Shown here: in pieces, positions 2,422-23,159 of the stretch | Position numbering within the stretch: position 1 is the stretch's first letter | Layout of the letters: every line of letters begins with the position of its first letter | Source of the DNA: a virus | Virus record (IMG/VR): IMGVR_UViG_3300020056_000149 | Span: 1-25,301 of that record | Length of the DNA: 25,301 nt | Strand: one strand, 5' to 3' | Made by a program: the position numbers and the translations under genes | Notes under the pieces: model-generated | What the model saw: the letters and a program-made list of their open reading frames with translations, nothing else | Told to the model about the DNA's origin: nothing | Database searches by the model: none

Positions 2422-3010
2422 TACACAGTACATGCAAGGTAGAAAGAAGTATGATCGTCCACAGGCGATGATCTTTTCTGATAGCGAAAACTTGCTCAAT
2501 GGCGATATCTACGGCGTAGAGGATGAGAACTTTATTATCCTGACTGATGACAATAGGTCTGAAATCTCTTTTGGTTTGAACAGAATTGAGAACAGAAACA
2601 GAATGATTAACGGAACAATGAGGTCTTATCACACAGTAGACAAGTTGACAATTAGTACTGGATGGTCTATGATCCCATCACGCAGAGCGTCAAACTTCTA
2701 CCAGTATACTGAGACAGGCAAGGGGCAGGTGTTTGGTGATCAAGAGGGAAACCCAGGAGAGATGTATACAACTGATGGTGGTGCAGGCGGGTTAGATATG
2801 TTTAACTGGTATCAGAGCCACCCTGGACCCTTCTGGCTATTCCTATGCTATGACAGGTTCGATAACTTTGCTGGTGACCCATTGCAATTTTTTAGGTTGG
2901 CACAGTACAGTCAGATTGTTCATGTATACTTTGCCTCCTTTGATTATACTGTTGTGAAGAGGGGCATTTACGATTTCTGGAACGTAAACATTGGTTTGGA
3001 TGAGGTCTAA
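2414..3010 (+). CDS. Minor tail protein, probable distal tail (Dit-like) protein
   Basis: A 198-residue protein with a GTG start. AAGGAG at 2403-2408 is well spaced and the start overlaps the tape-measure stop by 8 bases (GTGGTTAG), so I prefer GTG 2414 to later ATGs. The chain is beta-rich with many aromatic residues (for example NWYQSHPGPFWLFLCYD), without signal peptide or membrane segment. Position directly after the tape measure and before a large hub-like protein is the usual place of the distal tail protein that joins tube to tip in siphoviruses. The sequence itself shows no catalytic motif. Function is inferred from synteny; minor tail protein is the safe name. Confidence 0.7.
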   Translation: MVSTQYMQGRKKYDRPQAMIFSDSENLLNGDIYGVEDENFIILTDDNRSEISFGLNRIENRNRMINGTMRSYHTVDKLTISTGWSMIPSRRASNFYQYTETGKGQVFGDQEGNPGEMYTTDGGAGGLDMFNWYQSHPGPFWLFLCYDRFDNFAGDPLQFFRLAQYSQIVHVYFASFDYTVVKRGIYDFWNVNIGLDEV

Positions 3011-6000
3011 TGTTTGAAAATGAAGAAGTAAAGGATGCTCTAGAGACTCAACACACTATCGAATTGCGTCGTCAAGTTTACGCTGAATGGAACATGAATG
3101 ACCCAGAGAACATTGAGAGAATTGGCAATCATCGTTTTAGACCACGAGATCCTGATGACATTCTGAGATCAACGCTACCCACCTACTGGCCCATGGACGA
3201 GGTTCAGGAAGATATTTTTATTAACGGCGCAACAGACTCTGACGTTACGATTGACGGAGGGGTGACCGATGACGGAGACCCAGAGATTTTTGTGGAGCCA
3301 AAAAGACTACTAGGACTATTATACTCTTTAGAAGATTGTTTTAAACCATTCAGGCCACGCTCAGGAATTAACAAGATTCTTTTGCTTGCTAACCAAGAAA
3401 CAAACTCTCCTCAGTTCCTTGACGGCGAACCAACAAGCGATAGAAGTTACGAGATAATTGAGAATCGTCCATACCTTGCAAAGCGTCCAAGATACTACGC
3501 ATCACACAGAGACGATCCATTTAAGTATTGGACTTCTTACAGAACAGAGGGCGGTACAGAGTATGGTGTTTCAGATCAAGAACCATCAGAGGGTGGTCAG
3601 TATTTCATTGACGATGTTGCACCATTTGTTGTATACAAGGAAGGCGTAGCAGCAAACAGGCTAGTTGTCAAGATGCAAACCAATGTTGGCGACGTTGAGT
3701 TAAATGACATTGTTGATGTTTATACAGGCAATGTAATAGATGATCCGTTCTACGGTCGTGAGAACATGACTATCCCATCGTTTTGGAGGGTAGAAGTTTT
3801 AGATAGAAACGGTGGATGGAGAGAGGCATACAGTTTTACCGCCAACTCTACTAGAGCAAATGGCGATCCAATTATTGGTGAGGACGGATATGTAGAACTA
3901 TCCTTTGCCTTGCAGATTCCAGAGATTTACAGAGACATATTTGTAGATGCAGGAGAGGTTTATTCTGTTGACATGCTTCCAGACGCAGCACCATCAGGAT
4001 ATGCCTACTTAGTAAAAGAGAACCAAGATGACATTGGAACCTACCACATCTACTACATTGATGGATGGGAAACGTTTACCCCACAATACAATTGGGATGT
4101 TGAGCCATACTCAGTAACAAACTCAACAGGATTTGTCAAGGATCTTGATGACACAAGGTCATACATTGCTGGCGATGGTGCGAGGGCATATCGTGAATTT
4201 GACTTTATTAGAGGCATTAGGATTGTCGTTGACTCAATGAATAAGGGAAACTGCACCTTTGATCTTATTGAAATGTCTCCTAGGCTTGCTGTAGATATGA
4301 CCAAGTTTGCTATCTCATTTAATCTAACTAAGACAATGGCTGATCTTGGAAACACACCGCTACCAATCGGTGGCCTGCTAAGTTCTACTGGCTCTATGGA
4401 ATTGGCTAATTATCAACTAGAATTCTCAGAGCAAAATGTGTTTGACCCAGACGCGGGAACGGGTAGTATTGTTGCCAATGCATTAGACAAGGCAATCAAA
4501 TTTGACTTCTATGATGTGCTTAGAAACATTGGGGAGTATAACTATTGGGTGCCACTCAAGACCATGTACACAGATAAACTGCCAGAATCAATCAATGGGG
4601 CACAAAATGTCAGTATTGAACTCAGAGATGCCTACGGAATTCTAGAGGCTCAGAAGGCTCCTGAGACCTTCTTGAGAAATATTTCACTAAGTAATGCAGT
4701 CATGGTTTTGCTTGACTCTATAGGCTTTACAAACTTTACATTTAGGAGAAAGCCTGGTCAGCCAGACCCAATCATTCCCTACTTCTTTGTTCCACCAGAT
4801 CAAAGCGTAGCGGAGATTCTAAACGAACTTGCTAAGGCAACTCAGTCTGCAATGTATTTTGATGAGTATAATAATTTAGTTATTGTTCTTAAAGAAAGAT
4901 TGCTGCCAGCAGAAGATGAAGAATTCTATGATCCAACGTTTGCCCTACAGAGCGAGACGCTTGGATTTAAGTTGCCTAACATTATTGAGATATCATCAGC
5001 AGACAAGAAGGTTCTCAACGATGGTGTAATCAACTACACAAAGAGAAGCCTACAGAGAAACTACGCCACCTTGCAGCAGGCACAGTTCAACGATGCATCA
5101 AAGACATGGGTGTACGCTCCAACGTTGTTGTGGGAGGTATCTGGATCTGAAAACACGAAGTCTATCAATGAGCAGGTACAGAATCAGTCATCCTATGCCC
5201 TGGCAGCCATGGCTCTTGACTCTGACCTTTCAGCAACAGTTCCAACAGTTGATCTCAATGGAAGAATTATAGACAATGTAATTGACGTTGGATCGGGAGT
5301 GTACTTTATTGCAAGATACAATGGATACTTCTATGCAGCGGGAGAGATTATCAGGTACGATGCAGTAGAATACAATGTCTCTGGTCAAGAAGATCCTGTT
5401 TGGATTACAAGCACACAAGAGTATCAGAAGTACATTCTAGAACTACCATTCAACGGAAAGATGTATCCAACAGGAAACATTAGAATCTATGCAGAGCCTA
5501 AGTTTAATGCTGAGGGTCAGGCAATCCCAGGTGAATGTGAGAAGCATGGCAGAGGGCAGTTTGGCACAGATGTTGTTTACCACAATGCTGGCATTGCAAG
5601 TGAGTGGACTTCAGATCAGAACCTTTACGGGGTTGAGCATCAGGTAGACTACCTATTCAATACGCAGCAGGTCATTCAGTACCCAGACACTTTGCAGCAG
5701 GGATCAGAGGGTGGCAATACCCTTGAGGCATATGCAGTAGGCAGAAGCGCAACCAAGGAAGGCTTTATTAAGAATACCTTGTCCCAGGTATATTGGAGCG
5801 ATGAAGACAATGATTGGGTTACAACCCAGGGTGGTACTGTTCAGTCCTCTGCGCTTACCTATGAGGGCAACGCAAGGAAAGACGGAACTAAGCCATATTC
5901 TAAGTTTATCTCTTACACAATGAAAGAGTTTGACAGAAAGTATGTTCACTACGGAACAAGAATGAGGATCATTGGTGAGATTGCAGGATCTTCTGCGTCA

Positions 6001-7644
6001 AATCAAGATGCCCTAGGTGCTTCACCTTATTACTACATCCCCACCTCTAACTCAGAAGACGACATTGCAATTCAGGGTGGATCAGGTGGTATGGGTATTA
6101 TGGTCAACAACCAGACCAACGAGGGATACTTTATGGAACTGATTGCTCTAAACAAGAATGCCCCCATCAACCTTGGAGACAAGCAAATTGTTGGCTACAA
6201 TATTGATAAGCAAAATGCTAACGTAATCAATGACGTTGCTTATCTAACTACAAATGTTGATCATGAGTTTGAGGTAGGAGATACCATTGCGGTTGCAGGA
6301 TTTAACATCAACAACATGAACGGCAATCAGGTAATTACATCAATCAATGGTAGGACTATTTCTTATGGAGTCTCAGGAGTGGGTACTGCATCTCCAGATT
6401 CAGGAGGTATTGTTGAGGCATACATTCCAACAGGCGTTACTGTTCACAACGTAGTCTTCTACAAGGTTGTAGGGTCATCAGACGGCAAGGCATACCCAAT
6501 CAAACTATGGACAGGCCTAGCACCAATTATTACAGACACAGGAATGTTTGCAGGAGAGTATCGTGTGGTAGGAGACGAAAACCCAACAGTATACGATATT
6601 GATATTGAATACAAGCCAATAGCAGAAACCTTTGGCAACCCACAGCAAGAGGGCTTAGAGTTTTATCTGTATCTAAATGGTAAGCAGTTGGCAGTTGTTC
6701 GTGACACAAGTCCACTACCCGTCAAGAATAATATGGCATTGTTTGTTAGAGGAAACAGCAAGTGCATGTTTGAGAATGTTTATGCGGTCAACATGAACTA
6801 CGGCAAGAATGGATCAGACTACATGCCTGTAGACATTCCCAAGGTATTTGGAACCACAGAAGATTCTGTAAACGAGGCATTGAGAAAGTATTCTGTAAGC
6901 GGTATGATACAAGGCTCATTCCTTTCTGGTATTAGTGCAGACTCTGATCCAGAATACATCATGTATTACGATGAGTTTGGCACAATCATGAGGGAAATGG
7001 CTTACTTTGATGTTAAGTTTGATAGAGCCTATCCAGCACTAACCGCACAACTTGCGCCCACATTTAGCAATCTAAAAACTTATGCTGTCTCAGGATTTAG
7101 AGCAAACGCATACGGAGCGAAGTTCATGGTGTTTAATGCGACAGATAAGATTATTACTCTTGACTCAAGTTCTGGTAACTATCTAAGAATTCTGGGAGTT
7201 ACCTTTACACAAAGCACATCAAATAAACTTACTGTAGACGACTACTACAAAGAAATGTCTGACTTCTCTAAGAGTTATGTAGGACTAGATCCAGTAACCT
7301 ACAGCGCAAGAGACTACCAGAAGATCCAGGACAAACTAAAGATTAGCAGAATGAAGAATGGAATCACTCAGTTTGACATTAACAGCCTGTATATTCAGGA
7401 CGAAGACACCGCTAGTGAGATGATGGGGTGGATAACTGATAGGGTCATGAAGCCTAAGAGAGTTATTGGTGCATCAATATTCCCAACCCCCACAATTCAA
7501 CTTGGAGACATGCTTTCTGTTGACTATCAGATAGACGGTGTGGACACGCTTACAAGTGCAGACAAGAGTTTTGTAGTGTATAATATTGAGTATAGTCATT
7601 CTTTAGGAGAAAATTCTATGACAGTATACTTGGCAGAGGTGTGA
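3010..7644 (+). CDS. Large minor tail protein / tail hub with probable lectin-like insert
   Basis: A 1544-residue structural protein starting at the ATG of a TAATG junction. A segment around residues 590-630, including VAEILNELAKATQSAMYFDE, resembles the hub or tail-associated proteins of siphoviruses (a helical segment followed by YFDExxxLVI). The last 50 residues (QLGDMLSVDY, then NIEYSHSLGENSMTVYL) resemble the beta-barrel end typical of hub and minor tail proteins. Residues about 1140-1265 look like an all-beta, lectin or LamG-type insert (WTGLAPI, GLEFYLYLNGKQLAVV), which would suit binding to a cell-surface sugar. The rest is beta-rich and unassigned. No peptidase or lysozyme motif was noticed. 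It probably forms the tail tip and may contact the receptor. Domain limits are by eye, so the sub-domain claims are tentative. Confidence 0.8.
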   Translation: MFENEEVKDALETQHTIELRRQVYAEWNMNDPENIERIGNHRFRPRDPDDILRSTLPTYWPMDEVQEDIFINGATDSDVTIDGGVTDDGDPEIFVEPKRLLGLLYSLEDCFKPFRPRSGINKILLLANQETNSPQFLDGEPTSDRSYEIIENRPYLAKRPRYYASHRDDPFKYWTSYRTEGGTEYGVSDQEPSEGGQYFIDDVAPFVVYKEGVAANRLVVKMQTNVGDVELNDIVDVYTGNVIDDPFYGRENMTIPSFWRVEVLDRNGGWREAYSFTANSTRANGDPIIGEDGYVELSFALQIPEIYRDIFVDAGEVYSVDMLPDAAPSGYAYLVKENQDDIGTYHIYYIDGWETFTPQYNWDVEPYSVTNSTGFVKDLDDTRSYIAGDGARAYREFDFIRGIRIVVDSMNKGNCTFDLIEMSPRLAVDMTKFAISFNLTKTMADLGNTPLPIGGLLSSTGSMELANYQLEFSEQNVFDPDAGTGSIVANALDKAIKFDFYDVLRNIGEYNYWVPLKTMYTDKLPESINGAQNVSIELRDAYGILEAQKAPETFLRNISLSNAVMVLLDSIGFTNFTFRRKPGQPDPIIPYFFVPPDQSVAEILNELAKATQSAMYFDEYNNLVIVLKERLLPAEDEEFYDPTFALQSETLGFKLPNIIEISSADKKVLNDGVINYTKRSLQRNYATLQQAQFNDASKTWVYAPTLLWEVSGSENTKSINEQVQNQSSYALAAMALDSDLSATVPTVDLNGRIIDNVIDVGSGVYFIARYNGYFYAAGEIIRYDAVEYNVSGQEDPVWITSTQEYQKYILELPFNGKMYPTGNIRIYAEPKFNAEGQAIPGECEKHGRGQFGTDVVYHNAGIASEWTSDQNLYGVEHQVDYLFNTQQVIQYPDTLQQGSEGGNTLEAYAVGRSATKEGFIKNTLSQVYWSDEDNDWVTTQGGTVQSSALTYEGNARKDGTKPYSKFISYTMKEFDRKYVHYGTRMRIIGEIAGSSASNQDALGASPYYYIPTSNSEDDIAIQGGSGGMGIMVNNQTNEGYFMELIALNKNAPINLGDKQIVGYNIDKQNANVINDVAYLTTNVDHEFEVGDTIAVAGFNINNMNGNQVITSINGRTISYGVSGVGTASPDSGGIVEAYIPTGVTVHNVVFYKVVGSSDGKAYPIKLWTGLAPIITDTGMFAGEYRVVGDENPTVYDIDIEYKPIAETFGNPQQEGLEFYLYLNGKQLAVVRDTSPLPVKNNMALFVRGNSKCMFENVYAVNMNYGKNGSDYMPVDIPKVFGTTEDSVNEALRKYSVSGMIQGSFLSGISADSDPEYIMYYDEFGTIMREMAYFDVKFDRAYPALTAQLAPTFSNLKTYAVSGFRANAYGAKFMVFNATDKIITLDSSSGNYLRILGVTFTQSTSNKLTVDDYYKEMSDFSKSYVGLDPVTYSARDYQKIQDKLKISRMKNGITQFDINSLYIQDEDTASEMMGWITDRVMKPKRVIGASIFPTPTIQLGDMLSVDYQIDGVDTLTSADKSFVVYNIEYSHSLGENSMTVYLAEV

Positions 7645-7645
7645 T

Positions 7646-8122
7646 ATGGTAAACCCCGTACCGTTGCTACCAGGCTATCTCGTATTTGATGGTGGTTCAG
7701 GCTTGATTGCTGACCAGAGAACCATCAGGCAAGCCGACCCAGATGTTGTTCAATACGACAACACTACAGTTCCAGCAGAGATTATGACCGACCTAATCTA
7801 CACAGCAGTAGGCGGCATTGAGTTCTCTAATGTAGCACGCCACGACACGGTAGATGGTAAGGATGTTTCCTACAGCCTTGTTAAGAAATTGTCATTGCTA
7901 GATGAAATCTATGATCCCAACAGAGTTCTAACATCAAACAGAACAATTCTTGAGGGACAGCCAAGGTATGCAATTTCGCTTGCAGACAAGATCATTGATG
8001 AAGAATTAATGTTTACTATGGATGAGAATGGCAACCTAGTTATTACACTACAGAATCTATCAGAAGAAGAATATGTAGAAGTTGAGATAGCATCGTCAGG
8101 AGAGGTACAGGACTTACTATGA
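7646..8122 (+). CDS. Small tail protein, function unknown
   Basis: A 158-residue acidic protein starting one base after the stop of the hub gene and ending in an ATGA overlap with the next tail gene. It begins MVNPVPLLPGYLVFDGGSG and has no membrane segment, signal peptide or catalytic motif. The C-terminal half (LMFTMDENGNLVITLQNLSEEEYVEVEI) reads as alternating beta strands. Tight packing between two tail genes suggests a tail-tip or baseplate component expressed with them. I do not recognise a named family. Confidence 0.65.
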   Translation: MVNPVPLLPGYLVFDGGSGLIADQRTIRQADPDVVQYDNTTVPAEIMTDLIYTAVGGIEFSNVARHDTVDGKDVSYSLVKKLSLLDEIYDPNRVLTSNRTILEGQPRYAISLADKIIDEELMFTMDENGNLVITLQNLSEEEYVEVEIASSGEVQDLL

Positions 8123-9249
8123 TTACTAACGCAGGAAAAGAAATTATTGCAAAGTATTTGCTAGGACAAGCACCAGCATACGGCACACATATCGCACTTG
8201 GATGTGGCCCAAAGCCTGGTTCACAAGGGGACTTTAGCGAGAAGAAGGCACTAGATTTTGAGATGGTTCGCATACCCGTTATCTCTAATGGTTTTGTTAA
8301 TGATATAGATGACGAGGGAAACGTAGTAACCAAAATGGCATACGTTGCTGAGATGCCACAATCAGATCGTTTGCAGATTACTGAGATTGGCCTATGGTCT
8401 GCTGGCAGCAATGCAAATGCACAGTCAGATAGCAGAATGCTTTATGCCTTTGACATTGAAGAGCCTTGGGCGGTACACAACGCAGATAGCGTAATTGAGT
8501 TTGGCGATCCCGACTCTGGTCTCCAATACTTTGAGCCCATTGACCTTGGCGATGGTACAGGAAACATCAACATTACAGACCCCATCTTTTCCTTGGTTAG
8601 TGACAACGCCATTTTTGCTAATGAGCAAAGAGAGGAAAGACAAGAGGGCGCACGATACCTAGACAACACTATTGTTGCACGAGGGGATGCTGCCACAATC
8701 AATGATGATTGGACTGTGACACCAGACAGCAGCCACATTCACCTCAATCAGTTTGTTGATCTATCAGCCAACAACCTAGCAGACGAAATTAGTTTTGCTC
8801 TATGCCTGTCCCCTCAGTCCAGTTCTGGTGCGACCGCTACTGCTGAGAAGGTTAGGGTTCTTGTTGAGTGGACGGCAGATGAGAACACACCAGAGACTAA
8901 CTTTGCACGCATGGAGGTAGAGTTAACAGATGCTGATTTTGCTGATAGCGCATACATCGTTGTAAAGAGAAGGCTTGACGAGTTGGTTTACAGCCCCAAC
9001 TTCTCTTGGTCACAGGTAAGAGTTGTCAGAATTTGGAGTTCTGTATACCAGAATTCAGCAGACCTAACCCCATCATCAGATCAGTATTTGCTTTATGATG
9101 CTATTCGTTTTGACAATATCTCCACACCAAATCCGCTATACGTCCTTACAGGATATGCCGTGGCAAACACAGCAGACGGGCAGCCCGTGGACAAGGTAGC
9201 AAATACCTCAAACTATGTAGAGTTTAGAGTAACCTTGGGGATTCAATGA
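8119..9249 (+). CDS. Minor tail protein, fibre/baseplate type
   Basis: A 376-residue protein with a 4-base ATGA overlap to the previous gene and another to the next. The N-terminus (MITNAGKEIIAKYLLGQAPA, then HIALGCGPKP) and the later EIGLWS motif near residue 95 are typical of a tail protein common in actinophages, in which an N-terminal domain attaches a fibre-like protein to the tail tip. The C-terminal half is beta-rich, with a segment around residues 295-335 (VRVVRIWSSVY, YDAIRFDN) that looks like a jelly-roll or carbohydrate-binding fold. Receptor binding is plausible but inferred. Confidence 0.7.
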   Translation: MITNAGKEIIAKYLLGQAPAYGTHIALGCGPKPGSQGDFSEKKALDFEMVRIPVISNGFVNDIDDEGNVVTKMAYVAEMPQSDRLQITEIGLWSAGSNANAQSDSRMLYAFDIEEPWAVHNADSVIEFGDPDSGLQYFEPIDLGDGTGNINITDPIFSLVSDNAIFANEQREERQEGARYLDNTIVARGDAATINDDWTVTPDSSHIHLNQFVDLSANNLADEISFALCLSPQSSSGATATAEKVRVLVEWTADENTPETNFARMEVELTDADFADSAYIVVKRRLDELVYSPNFSWSQVRVVRIWSSVYQNSADLTPSSDQYLLYDAIRFDNISTPNPLYVLTGYAVANTADGQPVDKVANTSNYVEFRVTLGIQ

Positions 9250-9401
9250 GAAGAGTAATCATTCCAGCAGAGGACTTGCCAACAACTACTGACGGCGTTT
9301 ACACTATTAGATTTAGAATTGTTAGTGAGGACAGGAACAGGTTTTCTGAGTGGTCACCCTTCTACAGTTACGACTCTACTGAGTTGCCCCCAACCTCCTG
9401 A
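9246..9401 (+). CDS. Small tail-associated protein (51 aa)
   Basis: A short frame beginning at the ATG of an ATGA overlap with the preceding tail gene and ending at TGA 9399-9401. It encodes 51 residues: MRRVIIPAEDLPTTTDGVYT, then a strand-rich section with RFRIVSEDRNRFSEWSPFY, ending in a Pro/Thr-rich tail. The RIVSEDxNRFSEWSP pattern is similar to small fibronectin-like tail proteins of actinophages as I remember them. The tight overlap, absence of any other frame here and a promoter right after it support a real gene. It is probably a minor virion component. Confidence 0.7.
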   Translation: MRRVIIPAEDLPTTTDGVYTIRFRIVSEDRNRFSEWSPFYSYDSTELPPTS

Positions 9402-9419
9402 TCTGGTATAATATAGATA
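9384..9419 (+). promoter_or_regulatory. Sigma70-type promoter for the fibre-like gene, predicted leaderless
   Basis: TTGCCC at 9384-9389 and TATAAT at 9407-9412 are separated by 17 bases, and TG at 9404-9405 makes an extended -10 element. The ATG at 9419 begins 7 bases after the last base of the -10 box, which is where transcription should start. No Shine-Dalgarno sequence lies between them. A leaderless transcript is predicted. Confidence 0.75.
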
Positions 9420-9877
9420 TGGCATCAAGCAGACTACCACTACCAGCAAGGGGACAACCTATTGACGTTCCCTTTATCTACGACATTGTAGATACGGTAA
9501 ACTCATTAGCAGGAGAAATTGCTGATAGCAATACCAATACTTTTTCATCAGTTCTCACTCCTGAGGGCGGGGTAAACAATCTTAAGACTGCAAACGTTCG
9601 CATAGCAGCAAAGTATTACCTTATCCCATCAGCGACTGTGGCTTCTGATAGCGTTTCAACTTTTACTGTATCTTTTGATAGCCCATTCTTGCAGACTCCA
9701 GTTGTCACAATGACCCTACAGAATACTGGCGGTCAAAACTTTGCATCAGGGGCAGTCGTAAGTATGACAAACATTACTCCATCACTAGTCAACGGTCAGA
9801 TCTACTTCCCCAAGGGTGGCACACATCAGGGGATGTACGTTCAGATGACTGCAATAGGTGTAGGCATTTCTCAATAG
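9419..9877 (+). CDS. Small tail fibre / tip protein
   Basis: A 152-residue protein. The N-terminal 40 residues (MASSRLPLPARGQPIDVPFI followed by a helical DTVNSLAGEI stretch) look like a trimerisation or attachment segment. The rest is beta-rich, with SFDSPFLQTPVVTMTLQNTGG and a C-terminal YVQMTAIGVG, resembling the H-type-lectin-like knobs that end many phage tail proteins. It directly follows the tail genes but has its own promoter, with the -10 box so close that the ATG is the likely first base of the mRNA. There is no ribosome site. It could be a receptor-binding tip. Structural role fairly likely, exact role uncertain. Confidence 0.7.
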   Translation: MASSRLPLPARGQPIDVPFIYDIVDTVNSLAGEIADSNTNTFSSVLTPEGGVNNLKTANVRIAAKYYLIPSATVASDSVSTFTVSFDSPFLQTPVVTMTLQNTGGQNFASGAVVSMTNITPSLVNGQIYFPKGGTHQGMYVQMTAIGVGISQ

Positions 9878-9879
9878 TC

Positions 9880-9896
9880 TGGTACAATTGTAGGCA
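9880..9896 (+). promoter_or_regulatory. Extended -10 promoter for the zinc-ribbon gene, predicted leaderless
   Basis: TGGTACAAT spans 9880-9888 (extended TG plus TACAAT) and shares TCTGGTAYAAT with the promoter at 9404. The ATG at 9896 follows after 7 bases. No convincing -35 box lies at the expected distance, which extended -10 promoters often do without. No Shine-Dalgarno sequence separates it from the ATG. Confidence 0.65.
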
Positions 9897-10093
9897 TGTT
9901 AAAATGCCAGAGGTGTTCAACAGGAAGGATGTTTGTAGATCGTGCTTATACATCAGATAATCACATCGAAATATTTTGCCTTACCTGTGGCAGTAGGGAG
10001 ATCTACCACAACTTTACCCAAGAAGATAGAAGGCCGACATGCCTCGCCCTAATAGAGAAGAAGAGGGCGCATACCATGATCGTCCCATTCTAG
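9896..10093 (+). CDS. Zinc-ribbon protein (65 aa)
   Basis: A 65-residue protein with two CxxC pairs: C4-x2-C7 (CQRC) near the start and CLTC about residues 28-31, the layout of a rubredoxin-like zinc ribbon that binds one Zn. Such small ribbons are frequent at the start of early regions in actinophages and are thought to bind nucleic acid or a transcription partner, but no function is proven here. It is predicted to be translated from a leaderless message. Its last 55 bases overlap the next gene in another frame. The C-terminal tail after about residue 45 is not obviously structured and may be constrained by that overlap. Confidence 0.7.
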   Translation: MLKCQRCSTGRMFVDRAYTSDNHIEIFCLTCGSREIYHNFTQEDRRPTCLALIEKKRAHTMIVPF

Positions 10094-10584
10094 CCAAGAC
10101 CTGGAAGAACAAGATCTGGTTTATCAACGGTGATCTGGTACGAGTAAAGCACATCCATAGATCAGCAAACATGGTCTATTGGTGGAATATTAATAAAGAT
10201 ATGAAGGGTTCTATGCTGTATTCTGAGTTTAAAAAGAAGCGTAAGAAGGCTTACACCGTAAGAGAAGCAGCAAAACTATTAAACATTCATTCAAAATCAT
10301 TGCCAAGACTTGTAAAGCAAGGCAAGTTTCCCAAGGCAATTGGGTCAGCACCAGGCGGGGAGACGGGCTGGCAGATCAGATCTTACTATAGTGAAGACCA
10401 CATCTATGCGATGAGGGAGGTTCTATCAGAGACTCACCATGGCCCACCTAGAAGGGACGGACTCATAACAAACAATAGTTGTCCTACTCTTGAGGAGTTG
10501 CGCTATCGCATGGGAGATGGTATGCTGTTATACACAAAGGCCGACGATGGTCGGTTCATACCGATATTCAATGAAACCATTTAG
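10039..10584 (+). CDS. Helix-turn-helix DNA-binding protein (MerR/excisionase-like)
   Basis: A 181-residue protein. Residues about 72-115 form a winged helix-turn-helix of the MerR/excisionase type: YTVREAAKLLNIHSKSLPRL, then VKQGKFPKAIG and a Trp/Arg wing. A following helix (EDHIYAMREVL) fits the same family. A basic stretch KKKRKK precedes it. The N-terminal 55 residues are rich in Trp and Tyr (IWFINGDLVRV, MVYWWNINKD) and may be a small beta domain. AAGG at 10030-10033 supports the start at 10039, although this gives a 55-base overlap with the zinc-ribbon gene. It probably regulates early transcription or acts in replication initiation; no integrase is in view, so an excisionase role is unlikely. 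Confidence 0.75.
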   Translation: MPRPNREEEGAYHDRPILAKTWKNKIWFINGDLVRVKHIHRSANMVYWWNINKDMKGSMLYSEFKKKRKKAYTVREAAKLLNIHSKSLPRLVKQGKFPKAIGSAPGGETGWQIRSYYSEDHIYAMREVLSETHHGPPRRDGLITNNSCPTLEELRYRMGDGMLLYTKADDGRFIPIFNETI

Positions 10585-10593
10585 GAGGTACTA

Positions 10594-10800
10594 ATGTCGG
10601 ATCAGACAAATGTAAGTTGGACCCTGGGCTACACGCTCAACACGGGTAATTTCCAGAACCTGCGACTTGACTTCAAGGTTGACGACTATGTTCGTGAGGG
10701 AGAGACCACTAAGGATGCATCCAATCGCGTCTACAAGTTGGTTGAGACCGAACTAATTGAGAAGTTGAATGAGGCCAAGGAGGAACTTGGTCATGGATGA
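10594..10800 (+). CDS. Conserved-looking small protein, function unknown (68 aa)
   Basis: A 68-residue protein preceded by a strong AGGAGG ribosome site at 10582-10587. It begins MSDQTNVSWTLGYTLNTGNF and ends in a charged helix (VETELIEKLNEAKEELGHG). No signal peptide, membrane span or metal motif is visible. Its last 8 bases contain the start of the next gene, and the AAGGAGG for that gene lies within its coding sequence, so the two are probably translationally coupled. Function not recognised. Confidence 0.65.
   Translation: MSDQTNVSWTLGYTLNTGNFQNLRLDFKVDDYVREGETTKDASNRVYKLVETELIEKLNEAKEELGHG
10777..10783 (+). promoter_or_regulatory. Ribosome-binding site deciding start 10793
   Basis: AAGGAGG ends 9 bases before ATG 10793. 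It lies downstream of the alternative ATG at 10769 and so could not serve it, which supports the shorter protein. Confidence 0.75.
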
Positions 10801-11032
10801 GGTCTGGGCACTATTCAATGAGACAGACGGCAAGGCATATGTTGCTCGCGCTGAGGAACCAACAGTTCTATGTTCCTTTGCACCATCAGCAACTGCTGCA
10901 CTAAACAAGATGGGTGGCTTGATTTCACAATACAAGAACCCATACCCCATTGGAAGTAGCGTTACCTATGACTTTGACAGTCAGAACTGGAACGTTACGC
11001 TAATCATTAACCACGAAGAGGACGATGAATAA
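10793..11032 (+). CDS. Small protein, function unknown (79 aa)
   Basis: The frame is open from an ATG at 10769, but AAGGAGG at 10777-10783 and the 8-base ATGGATGA overlap point to 10793, giving 79 residues starting MDEVWALFNETDGKAYVARA. It is a small alpha/beta protein without motifs and with an acidic C-terminus (HEEDDE). The gene ends in a TAATG junction with the next one. Placement ahead of the helicase suggests an early function; nothing more can be said. Confidence 0.65.
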   Translation: MDEVWALFNETDGKAYVARAEEPTVLCSFAPSATAALNKMGGLISQYKNPYPIGSSVTYDFDSQNWNVTLIINHEEDDE

Positions 11033-11343
11033 TGGCAGACCGCAAGGACAGGTTTGGAATGCTTGGCAAGTACAAGAAACTGTCTATTGATCGTGGCTAT
11101 GGCGATCCTGGTCTAAACTTCAACAAGGAGCAATGGGCTGCTGATGCTCTTCTAGAGTCATATGAGATACAAGAGATTAGTGCTGCGCTTGATTATTACT
11201 TTAAGGTTAGTGACTCTCCATCGTGGAAGTTCTTTTCCTTTAACTGTGATAGAATCATAGCGTCTATGAAAGCACAAGAGTTAGATAAGAAGCAAAGAGA
11301 AGAGAGACGAGCGTTGGCGAAGGAGTGGTTGAATAATGGCTAA
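11032..11343 (+). CDS. Small protein upstream of helicase, possible helicase-loader-like role
   Basis: A 103-residue, mainly helical protein with a charged C-terminus (KKQREERRALAKEWL). It begins at a TAATG junction and overlaps the helicase gene by 8 bases (ATGGCTAA), so the two are probably co-translated. The segment ISAALDYYFKVSDSPSWKFF around residues 49-68 is its most distinctive part. Phage helicase loaders are often small helical proteins encoded next to the helicase; position alone suggests this and no loader motif is visible. Replication accessory protein of unknown function is the safe reading. Confidence 0.6.
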   Translation: MADRKDRFGMLGKYKKLSIDRGYGDPGLNFNKEQWAADALLESYEIQEISAALDYYFKVSDSPSWKFFSFNCDRIIASMKAQELDKKQREERRALAKEWLNNG

Positions 11344-12562
11344 TTTAGAATCTACAACACTATCTGCACTACTAAATGATAAGCAAGTTCACATCATGTT
11401 TCAGGGTGGCGCAGATTCAGTAATCAGGACTCATTCAGATGTTTGGGGTTTTATTAGGGAGTACGCTGAGAAAAATCAGTCAGTTCCTCCTGTCAATATT
11501 GTTAAGCAAAACTTTCCAGACTTTGATTACGTTGTAGATACAGGCAGCACTAAGCATCACCTAGAAGAACTAAAGGCGCAATGCCTCAAGGACAATCTAA
11601 AGATTGCTTTGCGAAATGCTGCCAACGATGTTCAGGCTGACAAGTCTAACGAGGCACTTGATTATCTTATTACTGAAACTGCAAACCTAAAGCGCATGAC
11701 CTCAAATGTCCGTGACGTTGACGCTACAGATATTGATAGTGCGTTGGCGCATTATGAGCATGTCAAAGAGATGCAGGAGTTGGGTATTCACGGTATCTTT
11801 ACAGGCCTAGAGGGCTTTGACAACTACCTACCTGCTGGTATTACCCCAGGACAGTTAGGTGTTCTGCTGGCCTATCCTGCCATTGGTAAGTCATGGATGA
11901 GCCTTTACCTTGCTGTTCAGGCCTGGAAGATGGGCAAGTCTCCGTTGGTTGTGTCTCTAGAAATGACAGAAGAAGAGGTACGAAACAGGGTATACACAAT
12001 CATGGGCGAGGGCAGATGGAGTCACAGGAAGTTGTCTGCTGGTGAGGTAGAGCCTGATCAGTTTAAGGATTGGGCAGAGAAAACCTTTGAGGACAAGCCT
12101 CAGTTCAATATCATTTCTAATGATGGTATAGGCGAGGTAACCCCATCTATCTTGCGAGGCAAGATTGATCAGTATGGGCCGTCCATTGTCTTTGTTGACT
12201 ACCTAAACCTCATGAGTTCTAACGTTAGGACTGACAACGAGGTAGTTAAGATGAAGAACTTGAGCCGTGAGTTGAAGTTGCTTGCTATCTCTGAGCAGAT
12301 CCCCGTGGTTGCTATCTCGTCTGCCACCCCTGACGACGTTACAGATATGAATAGCGTCCCAACACTAGGTCAAACATCGTGGTCACGACAGATCGCTTAC
12401 GATGCTGACTGGCTACTAGCGTTGGGCAGGGCAGCCAACAGCGATGTTATTGAGTTCTGCTTCAGAAAGAACCGTAACGGATTCCTTGGAGAGTTCCTTG
12501 TGCAGGCTGACTTTGACTCAGGAAGATTCCTGTACAGAGACTTTGAGGACGTACAAATGTAA
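11336..12562 (+). CDS. DnaB-like replicative DNA helicase
   Basis: A 408-residue RecA-fold helicase of the DnaB family, which unwinds DNA 5' to 3' as a hexamer ahead of the phage polymerase. The N-terminal 150 residues are helical; TGLEGFDNYLPAGITPGQLG leads into Walker A AYPAIGKS at 179-186 (K185, S186). Residues 206-212 (VSLEMTE) match motif H1a. Walker B is IVFVDYLNL with D288, and QTSWSRQIAYDADW near 346-359 with FRKNRNG near 376-382 matches motif H4 and the arginine-finger region. The usual first Gly of Walker A is Ala here. It starts inside the preceding small gene (8-base overlap). The primase lies two genes downstream, a common pairing. Confidence 0.92.
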   Translation: MANLESTTLSALLNDKQVHIMFQGGADSVIRTHSDVWGFIREYAEKNQSVPPVNIVKQNFPDFDYVVDTGSTKHHLEELKAQCLKDNLKIALRNAANDVQADKSNEALDYLITETANLKRMTSNVRDVDATDIDSALAHYEHVKEMQELGIHGIFTGLEGFDNYLPAGITPGQLGVLLAYPAIGKSWMSLYLAVQAWKMGKSPLVVSLEMTEEEVRNRVYTIMGEGRWSHRKLSAGEVEPDQFKDWAEKTFEDKPQFNIISNDGIGEVTPSILRGKIDQYGPSIVFVDYLNLMSSNVRTDNEVVKMKNLSRELKLLAISEQIPVVAISSATPDDVTDMNSVPTLGQTSWSRQIAYDADWLLALGRAANSDVIEFCFRKNRNGFLGEFLVQADFDSGRFLYRDFEDVQM

Positions 12563-12574
12563 TAAAAGATACGG

Positions 12575-12587
12575 TATAATTAGTGCA
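12575..12587 (+). promoter_or_regulatory. -10 promoter element, predicted leaderless start
   Basis: TATAAT at 12575-12580, within CGGTATAATT, ends 6 bases before ATG 12587. No Shine-Dalgarno sequence occurs between them. The -35 region is weak (TACAAA at 12552-12557, 17-base spacing). It lies just after the helicase stop and would start a message for the next unknown gene and primase. Confidence 0.65.
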
Positions 12588-12907
12588 TGGAAAACTTCAT
12601 ACATAAGCCTATCAAGAGGTTCAGCATAGACGGGTCAATCTATGATGACTCTTATGTTCCACGCCTCAGAGATCAGTACGAGATGATTCTCAGATCCAAG
12701 ATGAGGAACAAAGGCTTTTGTAGAAGAATGGATATTGACGCAGAATTTACATTAGAATATACTGGAAATGGATATGAATTTGAGTTATCATTATATGGAG
12801 TATACGTTGGAAAAAGGAAGGCACAATGGATAGAGGGACTGCTAGGTACAAGGCCGATATATATACAGGAGAGCAAGTTAGAGAAATCCTTACTCTCGCA
12901 GGAGTAG
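12587..12907 (+). CDS. Phage protein of unknown function (106 aa)
   Basis: A 106-residue protein starting MENFIHKPIKRFSIDGSIYD, with a helical charged segment (RLRDQYEMILRSKMRNKG) then a beta-rich half (YEFELSLYGVYVGKRKAQWI). The layout resembles small proteins found next to primase genes in other actinophages, as far as I can recall. The ATG is placed where transcription from the adjacent TATAAT should begin and lacks a ribosome site. The last 82 bases overlap the primase gene in another frame, unusually long for this genome, so the C-terminal 27 residues are dual-coded. Real gene likely; function unknown. Confidence 0.65.
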   Translation: MENFIHKPIKRFSIDGSIYDDSYVPRLRDQYEMILRSKMRNKGFCRRMDIDAEFTLEYTGNGYEFELSLYGVYVGKRKAQWIEGLLGTRPIYIQESKLEKSLLSQE

Positions 12908-21687: not shown

Positions 21688-22080
21688 ATGGAAGAAGACA
21701 ACGTAGTAGAATTTCCAGTTGAAGAAGAGCATAGCAAGACAGACATTGATGACATTTGGAATGATTGGGAAAAGGATTGGGATGCATTCGACTCAGACAT
21801 GGTTGATTGGGACATGCTGATCCACCGCGCACCCAGCGGTCATGAAATTGATAAGGCTTGTGATGAGATCAAACTACTTCTTCTTGACAAGAACATTGCT
21901 TACGGCAACTCAGCACTAGAGCCAATCTCTATCTTTGCCAAGGCAGGGTCACAAGAGGGAATCGCTAATCGTATTGACGATAAGTTAAATAGGATTAAGA
22001 ATGACCAGGCCTATGTCGGTGACAATGATCTTGATGACTTGATCGGATACCTGATCCTATACAGAATTTCAAAGTCTTGA
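21688..22080 (+). CDS. Nmad1/DUF1599-like protein with acidic N-terminus
   Basis: A 130-residue protein. Residues about 53-128 form an all-alpha domain: ACDEIKLLLLDKNIAYGNSA, then IANRIDDKLNRIKN, and DNDLDDLIGYLILYRI. The order (K-N-x-A-Y-G-N-S, R-x-x-D-K-L-x-R, then an acidic D-L-x-x-L-x-G-Y helix) resembles the DUF1599 or nucleotide-modification-associated domain 1 family, a relative of MazG-like folds. Some members are linked to modified-base pathways, but no modifying enzyme is visible in this window. Residues 2-44 are very acidic and Trp-rich (DDIWNDWEKDWDAFDSDMVD). AAGGAGA precedes the start. Family assignment is from memory of the motif and is moderate. Confidence 0.65.
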   Translation: MEEDNVVEFPVEEEHSKTDIDDIWNDWEKDWDAFDSDMVDWDMLIHRAPSGHEIDKACDEIKLLLLDKNIAYGNSALEPISIFAKAGSQEGIANRIDDKLNRIKNDQAYVGDNDLDDLIGYLILYRISKS

Positions 22081-22105
22081 CAATAGATTTAGACCCTGGT
22101 ATAAT
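22077..22105 (+). promoter_or_regulatory. Full-consensus sigma70 promoter
   Basis: TTGACA (22077-22082) and TATAAT (22100-22105) are exact consensus boxes with a 17-base spacer, and TG at 22097-22098 adds an extended -10. It overlaps the stop of the preceding gene. Start is expected near 22112, giving a leader of about 35 bases before ATG 22147 with AGAAAGG as ribosome site. Confidence 0.88.
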
Positions 22106-22444: not shown

Positions 22445-22453
22445 TGATATAAT
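22445..22453 (+). promoter_or_regulatory. Possible extended -10 promoter for the lipoprotein gene
   Basis: TGATATAAT (TG 22445-22446, TATAAT 22448-22453) follows the preceding stop by about ten bases. No -35 box is convincing. A start near 22460 gives a leader of about 25 bases. Confidence 0.5.
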
Positions 22454-23150: not shown

Positions 23151-23159
23151 TGGTATAAT
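23151..23159 (+). promoter_or_regulatory. Extended -10 promoter of the terminase operon
   Basis: TGGTATAAT is the same element as at 9404 and 22097. No -35 box is seen; the expected -35 zone coincides with the right arm of the terminator hairpin. Start near 23166 gives a leader of about 17 bases that holds AGGAGA (23173-23178) before ATG 23183. Confidence 0.7.

Follow-up and report, generated by a model that had tools for sequence, protein, structure and literature searches.

Conserved extended -10 element and predicted leaderless start at a fibre-like gene of an uncultured phage related to Stanwilliamsviridae

Leaderless genes account for more than 20% of genes in Actinobacteria, where they are marked by a TANNNT motif about 12 bases 5' of the start codon, and changes of start mode, between Shine–Dalgarno (SD)-led and leaderless, have been inferred between related genomes (PMC3160421). 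In mycobacteria about 14% of the genes are leaderless, and the costs and benefits of leaderless translation in actinobacteria are still argued (PMC7148126). In phages, leaderless promoters were predicted in the Cluster O mycobacteriophages (Corndog and relatives), a set of five closely related genomes with one such promoter, PL2, in the structural operon (PMC4351075), and a leaderless transcript was predicted for gene 90 of mycobacteriophage Adephagia (PMC11373665); our literature search on Stanwilliamsviridae and on leaderless promoters located within the structural regions of phages found only these two cases. Here we describe a candidate leaderless start in a 25.3-kb virus fragment from IMG/VR (IMGVR_UViG_3300020056_000149, 25,301 nucleotides; hereafter the window). 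In it, TTGCCC, a 17-base spacer and TGGTATAAT span positions 9384-9412; after a further six bases, at 9419-9421, a fibre-like gene begins with ATG (Table 1). The positions given for these elements in the initial annotation, made from the letters alone, were confirmed.

The site shares with the TA-led genes of actinobacteria (PMC3160421; Mycobacterium, PMC7148126) a TATAAT-like box about 12 bases 5' of the start and the lack of a ribosome site, but it belongs to uncultured low-GC phages, has a near-consensus extended -10 element and shows the switch of start mode in dozens of lineages at a single phage promoter that stays fixed. The Cluster O promoters PL1, PR2 and PL2 offer a parallel in that PL2 serves a gene inside the structural operon; those phages are, however, unrelated to ours, and the PL2 gene runs leftward against the operon whereas the fibre-like gene runs along it (PMC4351075). 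For Adephagia gene 90, too, a leaderless transcript is predicted in an actinobacterial host, but this is a single case in a toxin–antitoxin region (PMC11373665). The promoter type is thus already known, while in the literature searched we found no description of conservation on this scale at one phage junction or of the alternation of start modes there.

A further parallel comes from cultured Streptomyces phages of the Stanwilliamsviridae (Gilson, Faust, BillNye and others). All 11 phages checked (L289-L296, L019-L021; e.g. L019:8531-8569) have TATAAT 6-7 bases 5' of an annotated ATG in the tail region, with AGATATAAT preceding the tail-gene ATG in phages such as Gilson and Faust, and most Loccivirinae have TTGACT 17 bases before the TATAAT. 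These phages share with the window the TATAAT near an ATG, the tail region, the gene order and a DnaE about 53% identical; the element differs in preceding another tail gene, at the position of window 7646, and in having AGA instead of TGN before the TATAAT. To judge from the sequence it is probably a leaderless promoter; the records and tables seen carry no promoter annotation for it. With Cluster O and these 11 phages at hand, the view that leaderless messages are rarely described inside phage structural regions is too strong, while their abundance in actinobacteria, also claimed initially, agrees with the published share of genes.

The extended -10 element and the gene behind it

As initially proposed, the window has no SD motif between the -10 box and ATG 9419. 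The first T of TATAAT lies 12 bases 5' of the ATG, within the 10-12 bases at which TANNNT marks TA-led genes, and the spacer (9390-9406) ends in TGG, placing a TGN directly 5' of the TATAAT as in extended -10 promoters. A generic scan of the window for sigma-70 promoters and terminators returned 36 promoter-like sites against 36.3 expected; promoters were not enriched, and a consensus match by itself therefore proves nothing. Motifs tied to a start codon were more frequent than expected: TGGTANAAT-N3-12-ATG occurs three times in the window against 0.15 expected, a number reached by 0 of 100 shuffles, and TGNTATAAT-N5-9-ATG once on the coding strand against a shuffle mean of 0.00 (20 shuffles).

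Scans with the fibre-like protein and neighbouring genes gave 201 loci, from freshwater viruses, in which the fibre-like gene is preceded by 60 bases or more of sequence. The loci were picked by the protein motif and not by the promoter, and clustering at 80% identity of the 60 upstream bases reduced them to 78 groups, taken as distinct junctions. An extended -10 (TGN-TAYAMT) within 30 bases of the ATG was found in 69 of the 78 groups and in 0 of 311 control stretches of equal length, 60-300 bases further upstream (Fisher p 4e-67, relatedness ignored). In an earlier set, for which TG was not a selection criterion, TG preceded the box in 50 of 55 groups. As the box is kept across relatives, the site at 9404-9412 cannot be put down to chance. 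The -35 region behaves differently: the mean best match to TTGACA at 16-18 bases was 2.90 of 6, against 2.20-2.86 at control spacings, and extended -10 promoters do not depend on a -35 box. The hexamer TTGCCC, initially read as part of the signal, is not conserved and is therefore probably not needed; across the junctions, the signal is an extended -10 and not a -35 box.

The promoter-like element is closely fitted to the end of the upstream open reading frame (ORF). In the window the stop codon TGA at 9400-9402 lies one base 5' of the extended -10 and 16 bases 5' of ATG 9419, and in most of 55 groups the stop lies directly against the TGN, makes it up (TGA-TATAAT) or coincides with the TAA within the TATAAT, although this last case is partly automatic because TATAAT always gives TAA in one frame. 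The use of an extended -10 may be explained by the -35 region being coding. The upstream ORF itself is a 3'-shortened version of the approximately 146-aa gene of the relatives, ending right at the promoter.

ATG 9419 is the sole ATG, GTG or TTG within the first 60 codons, no such codon occurs from there back to the in-frame stop upstream, and the motif PLPxxGQPxD near the N terminus is common to the window protein and its relatives (which start M-x(2)-PLPERGQP). The lack of an alternative start codon and the homologous N termini identify it as the true start. The match of the product to the H-type lectin family (PF09458) is weak and below the cut-off (E 4.6e-4). An AlphaFold model built from 62 sequences (mean predicted local distance difference test score 82.9, predicted template modelling (TM) score 0.64) gave Foldseek matches to the R1 pyocin fibre, the tailspikes of phi297 and LKA1, Helix agglutinin and many phage tail fibres, the scores against PDB being modest (TM 0.4-0.5). 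Matches to plant-virus coats and major histocompatibility complex proteins were set aside as general beta-sandwich likeness. That the gene encodes a receptor-binding fibre-like protein, in keeping with the initial description, is well supported by the profile and by the modelled fold. Among 50,697 records we found no cultured-phage relative of this protein or of a consensus-like version from its relatives, a scan of genome contigs for a host or provirus returned no relative of it, and a DNA search of cultured phages with window 3010-9877 gave no match.

The window has the gene order of BillNye (tape measure, tail genes, helix-turn-helix (HTH) gene, helicase, primase, DnaE), and its DnaE is 53% identical to those of Stanwilliamsviridae Streptomyces phages over 100% of the query; both the gene order and the homologous DnaE are features of Stanwilliamsviridae-like actinophages. 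The tail protein is only about 33% identical, across a third of its length. WhiB, an actinobacterial mark, was detected in 12 of 16 long relatives at E<=0.001 (10 of 16 over the cut-off), and a sigma-70 region-2 protein (PF04542) in none of these 16, which may be fragments. An actinobacterial host and the use of its RNA polymerase are therefore likely. Recognition by a phage-encoded sigma factor was considered and rejected on the same absence of PF04542 from the 16, possibly fragmentary, relatives.

Table 1. Positions of predicted signals and genes in the window.
Feature	Position	Strand	Remarks
Upstream ORF, 51 aa	9246-9402	+	Homologous to the start of an approximately 146-aa gene in relatives
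-35-like hexamer TTGCCC	9384-9389	+	Within 3' end of upstream ORF; 4/6 -35 matches
Extended -10 box TGG-TATAAT	9404-9412	+	TATAAT at 9407-9412
Discriminator ATAGAT, 6 bases	9413-9418	+	Predicted +1 at A9419
Fibre-like gene, 152 aa	9419-9877	+	Predicted leaderless start; from ORF; C-terminal part like H-type lectin and tail-fibre tips
Second extended -10, TGG-TACAAT	9880-9888	+	7 bases 5' of ATG 9896
Zn-ribbon-like protein gene, 65 aa	9896-10093	+	Predicted leaderless; phrog_12850
HTH gene after Zn-ribbon gene	10039-10584	+	HTH_17 match
Third site, CGG-TATAAT	12572-12580	+	6 bases 5' of ATG 12587
106-aa gene ahead of primase	12587-12907	+	Predicted leaderless; from ORF and relatives
Full consensus promoter, TTGACA-17-TATAAT	22077-22105	+	TGG ends spacer; leadered; next gene ATG 22147
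TGATATAAT	22445-22453	+	Leadered; gene 22485, GGAGG
TGGTATAAT	23151-23159	+	Leadered with ribosome site; gene 23183

Spacing of the start codon and start mode

The distance from the box to the ATG falls into two classes, with 46 of the 78 groups having a gap of 5-9 bases and 29 a gap of 14-20, while three have no box. Among the short gaps, 6 (20 groups) and 9 (17) dominate over 7 and 8 (three each). The gap class predicts the presence of a ribosome site: none is found in 40 of the 46 short-gap groups, whereas all 29 long-gap groups have one (Fisher p 3e-15, without correction for relatedness), as do all three groups without a box. A short ribosome-binding leader takes the place of the leaderless start in about 40% of the distinct junction versions. 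For the junction alignment that the initial annotation had suggested as a check, this means that the -10 box is conserved while the gap of exactly six bases is not general, as it is seen in 20 of 78 groups and the longer gap goes with a ribosome site.

The seventh base after the box is more constant than the position of the ATG. In the gap-6 groups (20/20) it is the A of the ATG itself; in the gap-9 groups, where the ATG places no constraint on it, it is A in 17 of 17, and over the short class as a whole it is A, a purine as expected of a transcription start, in 39 of 46. Of the 29 long-gap groups, 28 have G or A there, and in this class the ribosome site starts on that base or close to it. 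Because the A of the gap-9 groups is unforced, the RNA start looks fixed, and the simplest reading of these spacings is that the +1 stays in place and the start codon follows it by 0, 3 or about 9 bases. The excess of gaps 6 and 9 over 7 and 8 points to a preference for a 3-base leader whose first base is A.

A quick tree built from the neighbouring tail protein shows at least six changes of start mode, three of them forced by well-supported branches; the branch of the window is very long there, which makes the placement of the window itself unsure. In six groups (L032, L058, L059, L098, L257 and L266) a GGAG directly follows the box. This stretch would not be transcribed from the promoter, so the promoter-made RNA would lack the GGAG and read-through RNA would carry it.

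Transcription from the site and alternatives to it

We consider it probable, at roughly 0.78, that an extended -10 promoter used by the host RNA polymerase starts a leaderless mRNA at the A of ATG 9419; as a prediction, the leaderless mRNA itself is well supported. A SigA-type promoter, squeezed between two genes, would place the transcription start on the seventh base after TATAAT, and the message would be translated by the leaderless route widely used in actinobacteria. The start that had been predicted at this A is supported by the -10 box kept in relatives and by the conserved A. The new transcript would begin at the last tail gene, that of the fibre-like protein, and would probably continue into the Zn-ribbon and HTH genes, because a generic scan predicted no terminator on the + strand from 2473 to 12632 and hence none behind the fibre-like gene. 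Across the family the promoter would stay fixed and the start codon move, lying at +1 or three bases on in leaderless forms, or about nine bases further, behind a minimal leader that opens with the ribosome site. Transcription from the site, the +1 and leaderless translation are inferred, as are the extent of the transcript and a role in timing. Several points weigh against the promoter reading: the -35 is poor, the identity of the host is likewise an inference, the junctions come from related phages and are not independent, a gap of nine bases would leave a 3-base leader that may affect leaderless translation, and upstream tail transcripts may read through the site.

By another explanation, the long tail-operon mRNA is the sole template for the fibre protein, with ribosomes re-initiating after termination at the upstream stop; the TATAAT-like stretch would then be an unstructured A/T-rich landing site for the ribosome and no promoter. 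The stop at 9400-9402 is near ATG 9419, as are the stops in most relatives, and the neighbouring tail genes are tightly packed. However, a landing site of this kind needs neither the TGN found in 69 of 78 groups nor a fixed A at the seventh base, the position of the box is constant while the ATG shifts, and the motif recurs at other starts on the coding strand only, which together make re-initiation alone unlikely. Slightly less probable still is a real promoter whose start lies downstream of, or away from, the ATG and which serves only the later genes, the fibre gene being read from upstream RNA. The site does lie where the tail and replication modules meet, and transcription start sites can shift by a few bases; on the other hand, long-gap relatives always have a ribosome site just after the predicted +1, positioned for the fibre gene, and the promoter therefore serves that gene. 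A chance or compositional match without function would agree with the unenriched generic sigma-70 matches, but it is refuted by the conservation (69/78 against 0/311) and by the strand-specific enrichment, and we regard it as very improbable.

The initial annotation had also suggested that one tail-tip gene could be expressed apart from the tail operon. The analysis does not support this, as no terminator is predicted behind the gene and in most relatives the next genes have no promoter of their own; the fibre-like gene may still be expressed separately in the window, whose next gene does have one.

Further starts and implications for the phages

The Zn-ribbon gene appears to have a second leaderless promoter in the window and in closer relatives (L281, L208, L204, L205, L286 and L287), where the box is kept at a gap of 6-9. 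Equivalents were found in 10 of 55 clusters overall, and in most other relatives the Zn-ribbon gene adjoins the fibre gene and has no promoter of its own. For the gene at 12587, a TATAAT at gap 6 is present in all three distinct junctions found, the window among them. In four long relatives (73-95 kb) TGNTATAAT-N5-9-ATG occurs 6, 10, 8 and 7 times, 31 in total, against 0.05-0.45 expected per record; all 31 are on the main coding strand of their record and none on the other. The automatic gene calls on these four are crude and allow a rough count only, but the strand-specific motif count is independent of them.

Two more conserved sites were seen in relatives. A TGATACAAT-type extended -10 precedes the tail gene corresponding to window 8119 in 33 of 35 relative clusters as a leadered promoter, mostly with a ribosome site; the window lacks it. 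In three relatives, a gene of about 1250 aa that matches nothing in PHROG has its start 8-9 bases beyond TGATAAAAT (G005 near 29388, L185:10388-14137, and its equivalents in G003 and G006). By its sequence, this is a further conserved start of leaderless type.

The 78 distinct junctions, natural variants of a single gene start with the promoter mostly kept and the start mode varying, provide a resource in actinobacterial phages, and the cultured Streptomyces phages are systems in which leaderless tail-gene RNA is testable. Gene callers relying on ribosome sites call for caution at about 6-10 starts per phage. We tentatively suggest, as a possibility rather than as the expected outcome, that in a large family of uncultured actinophages the fixed promoter at the tail–replication border is an evolutionary switch point, where gaining or losing a few bases shifts this one gene time and again from a leaderless to an SD-led start or back, and that some lineages have a dual form (TATAATGGAGAGATAATG) with leaderless promoter RNA and SD-led read-through RNA. 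If so, a phage could balance its receptor-binding protein against the infection phase or the state of the ribosomes.
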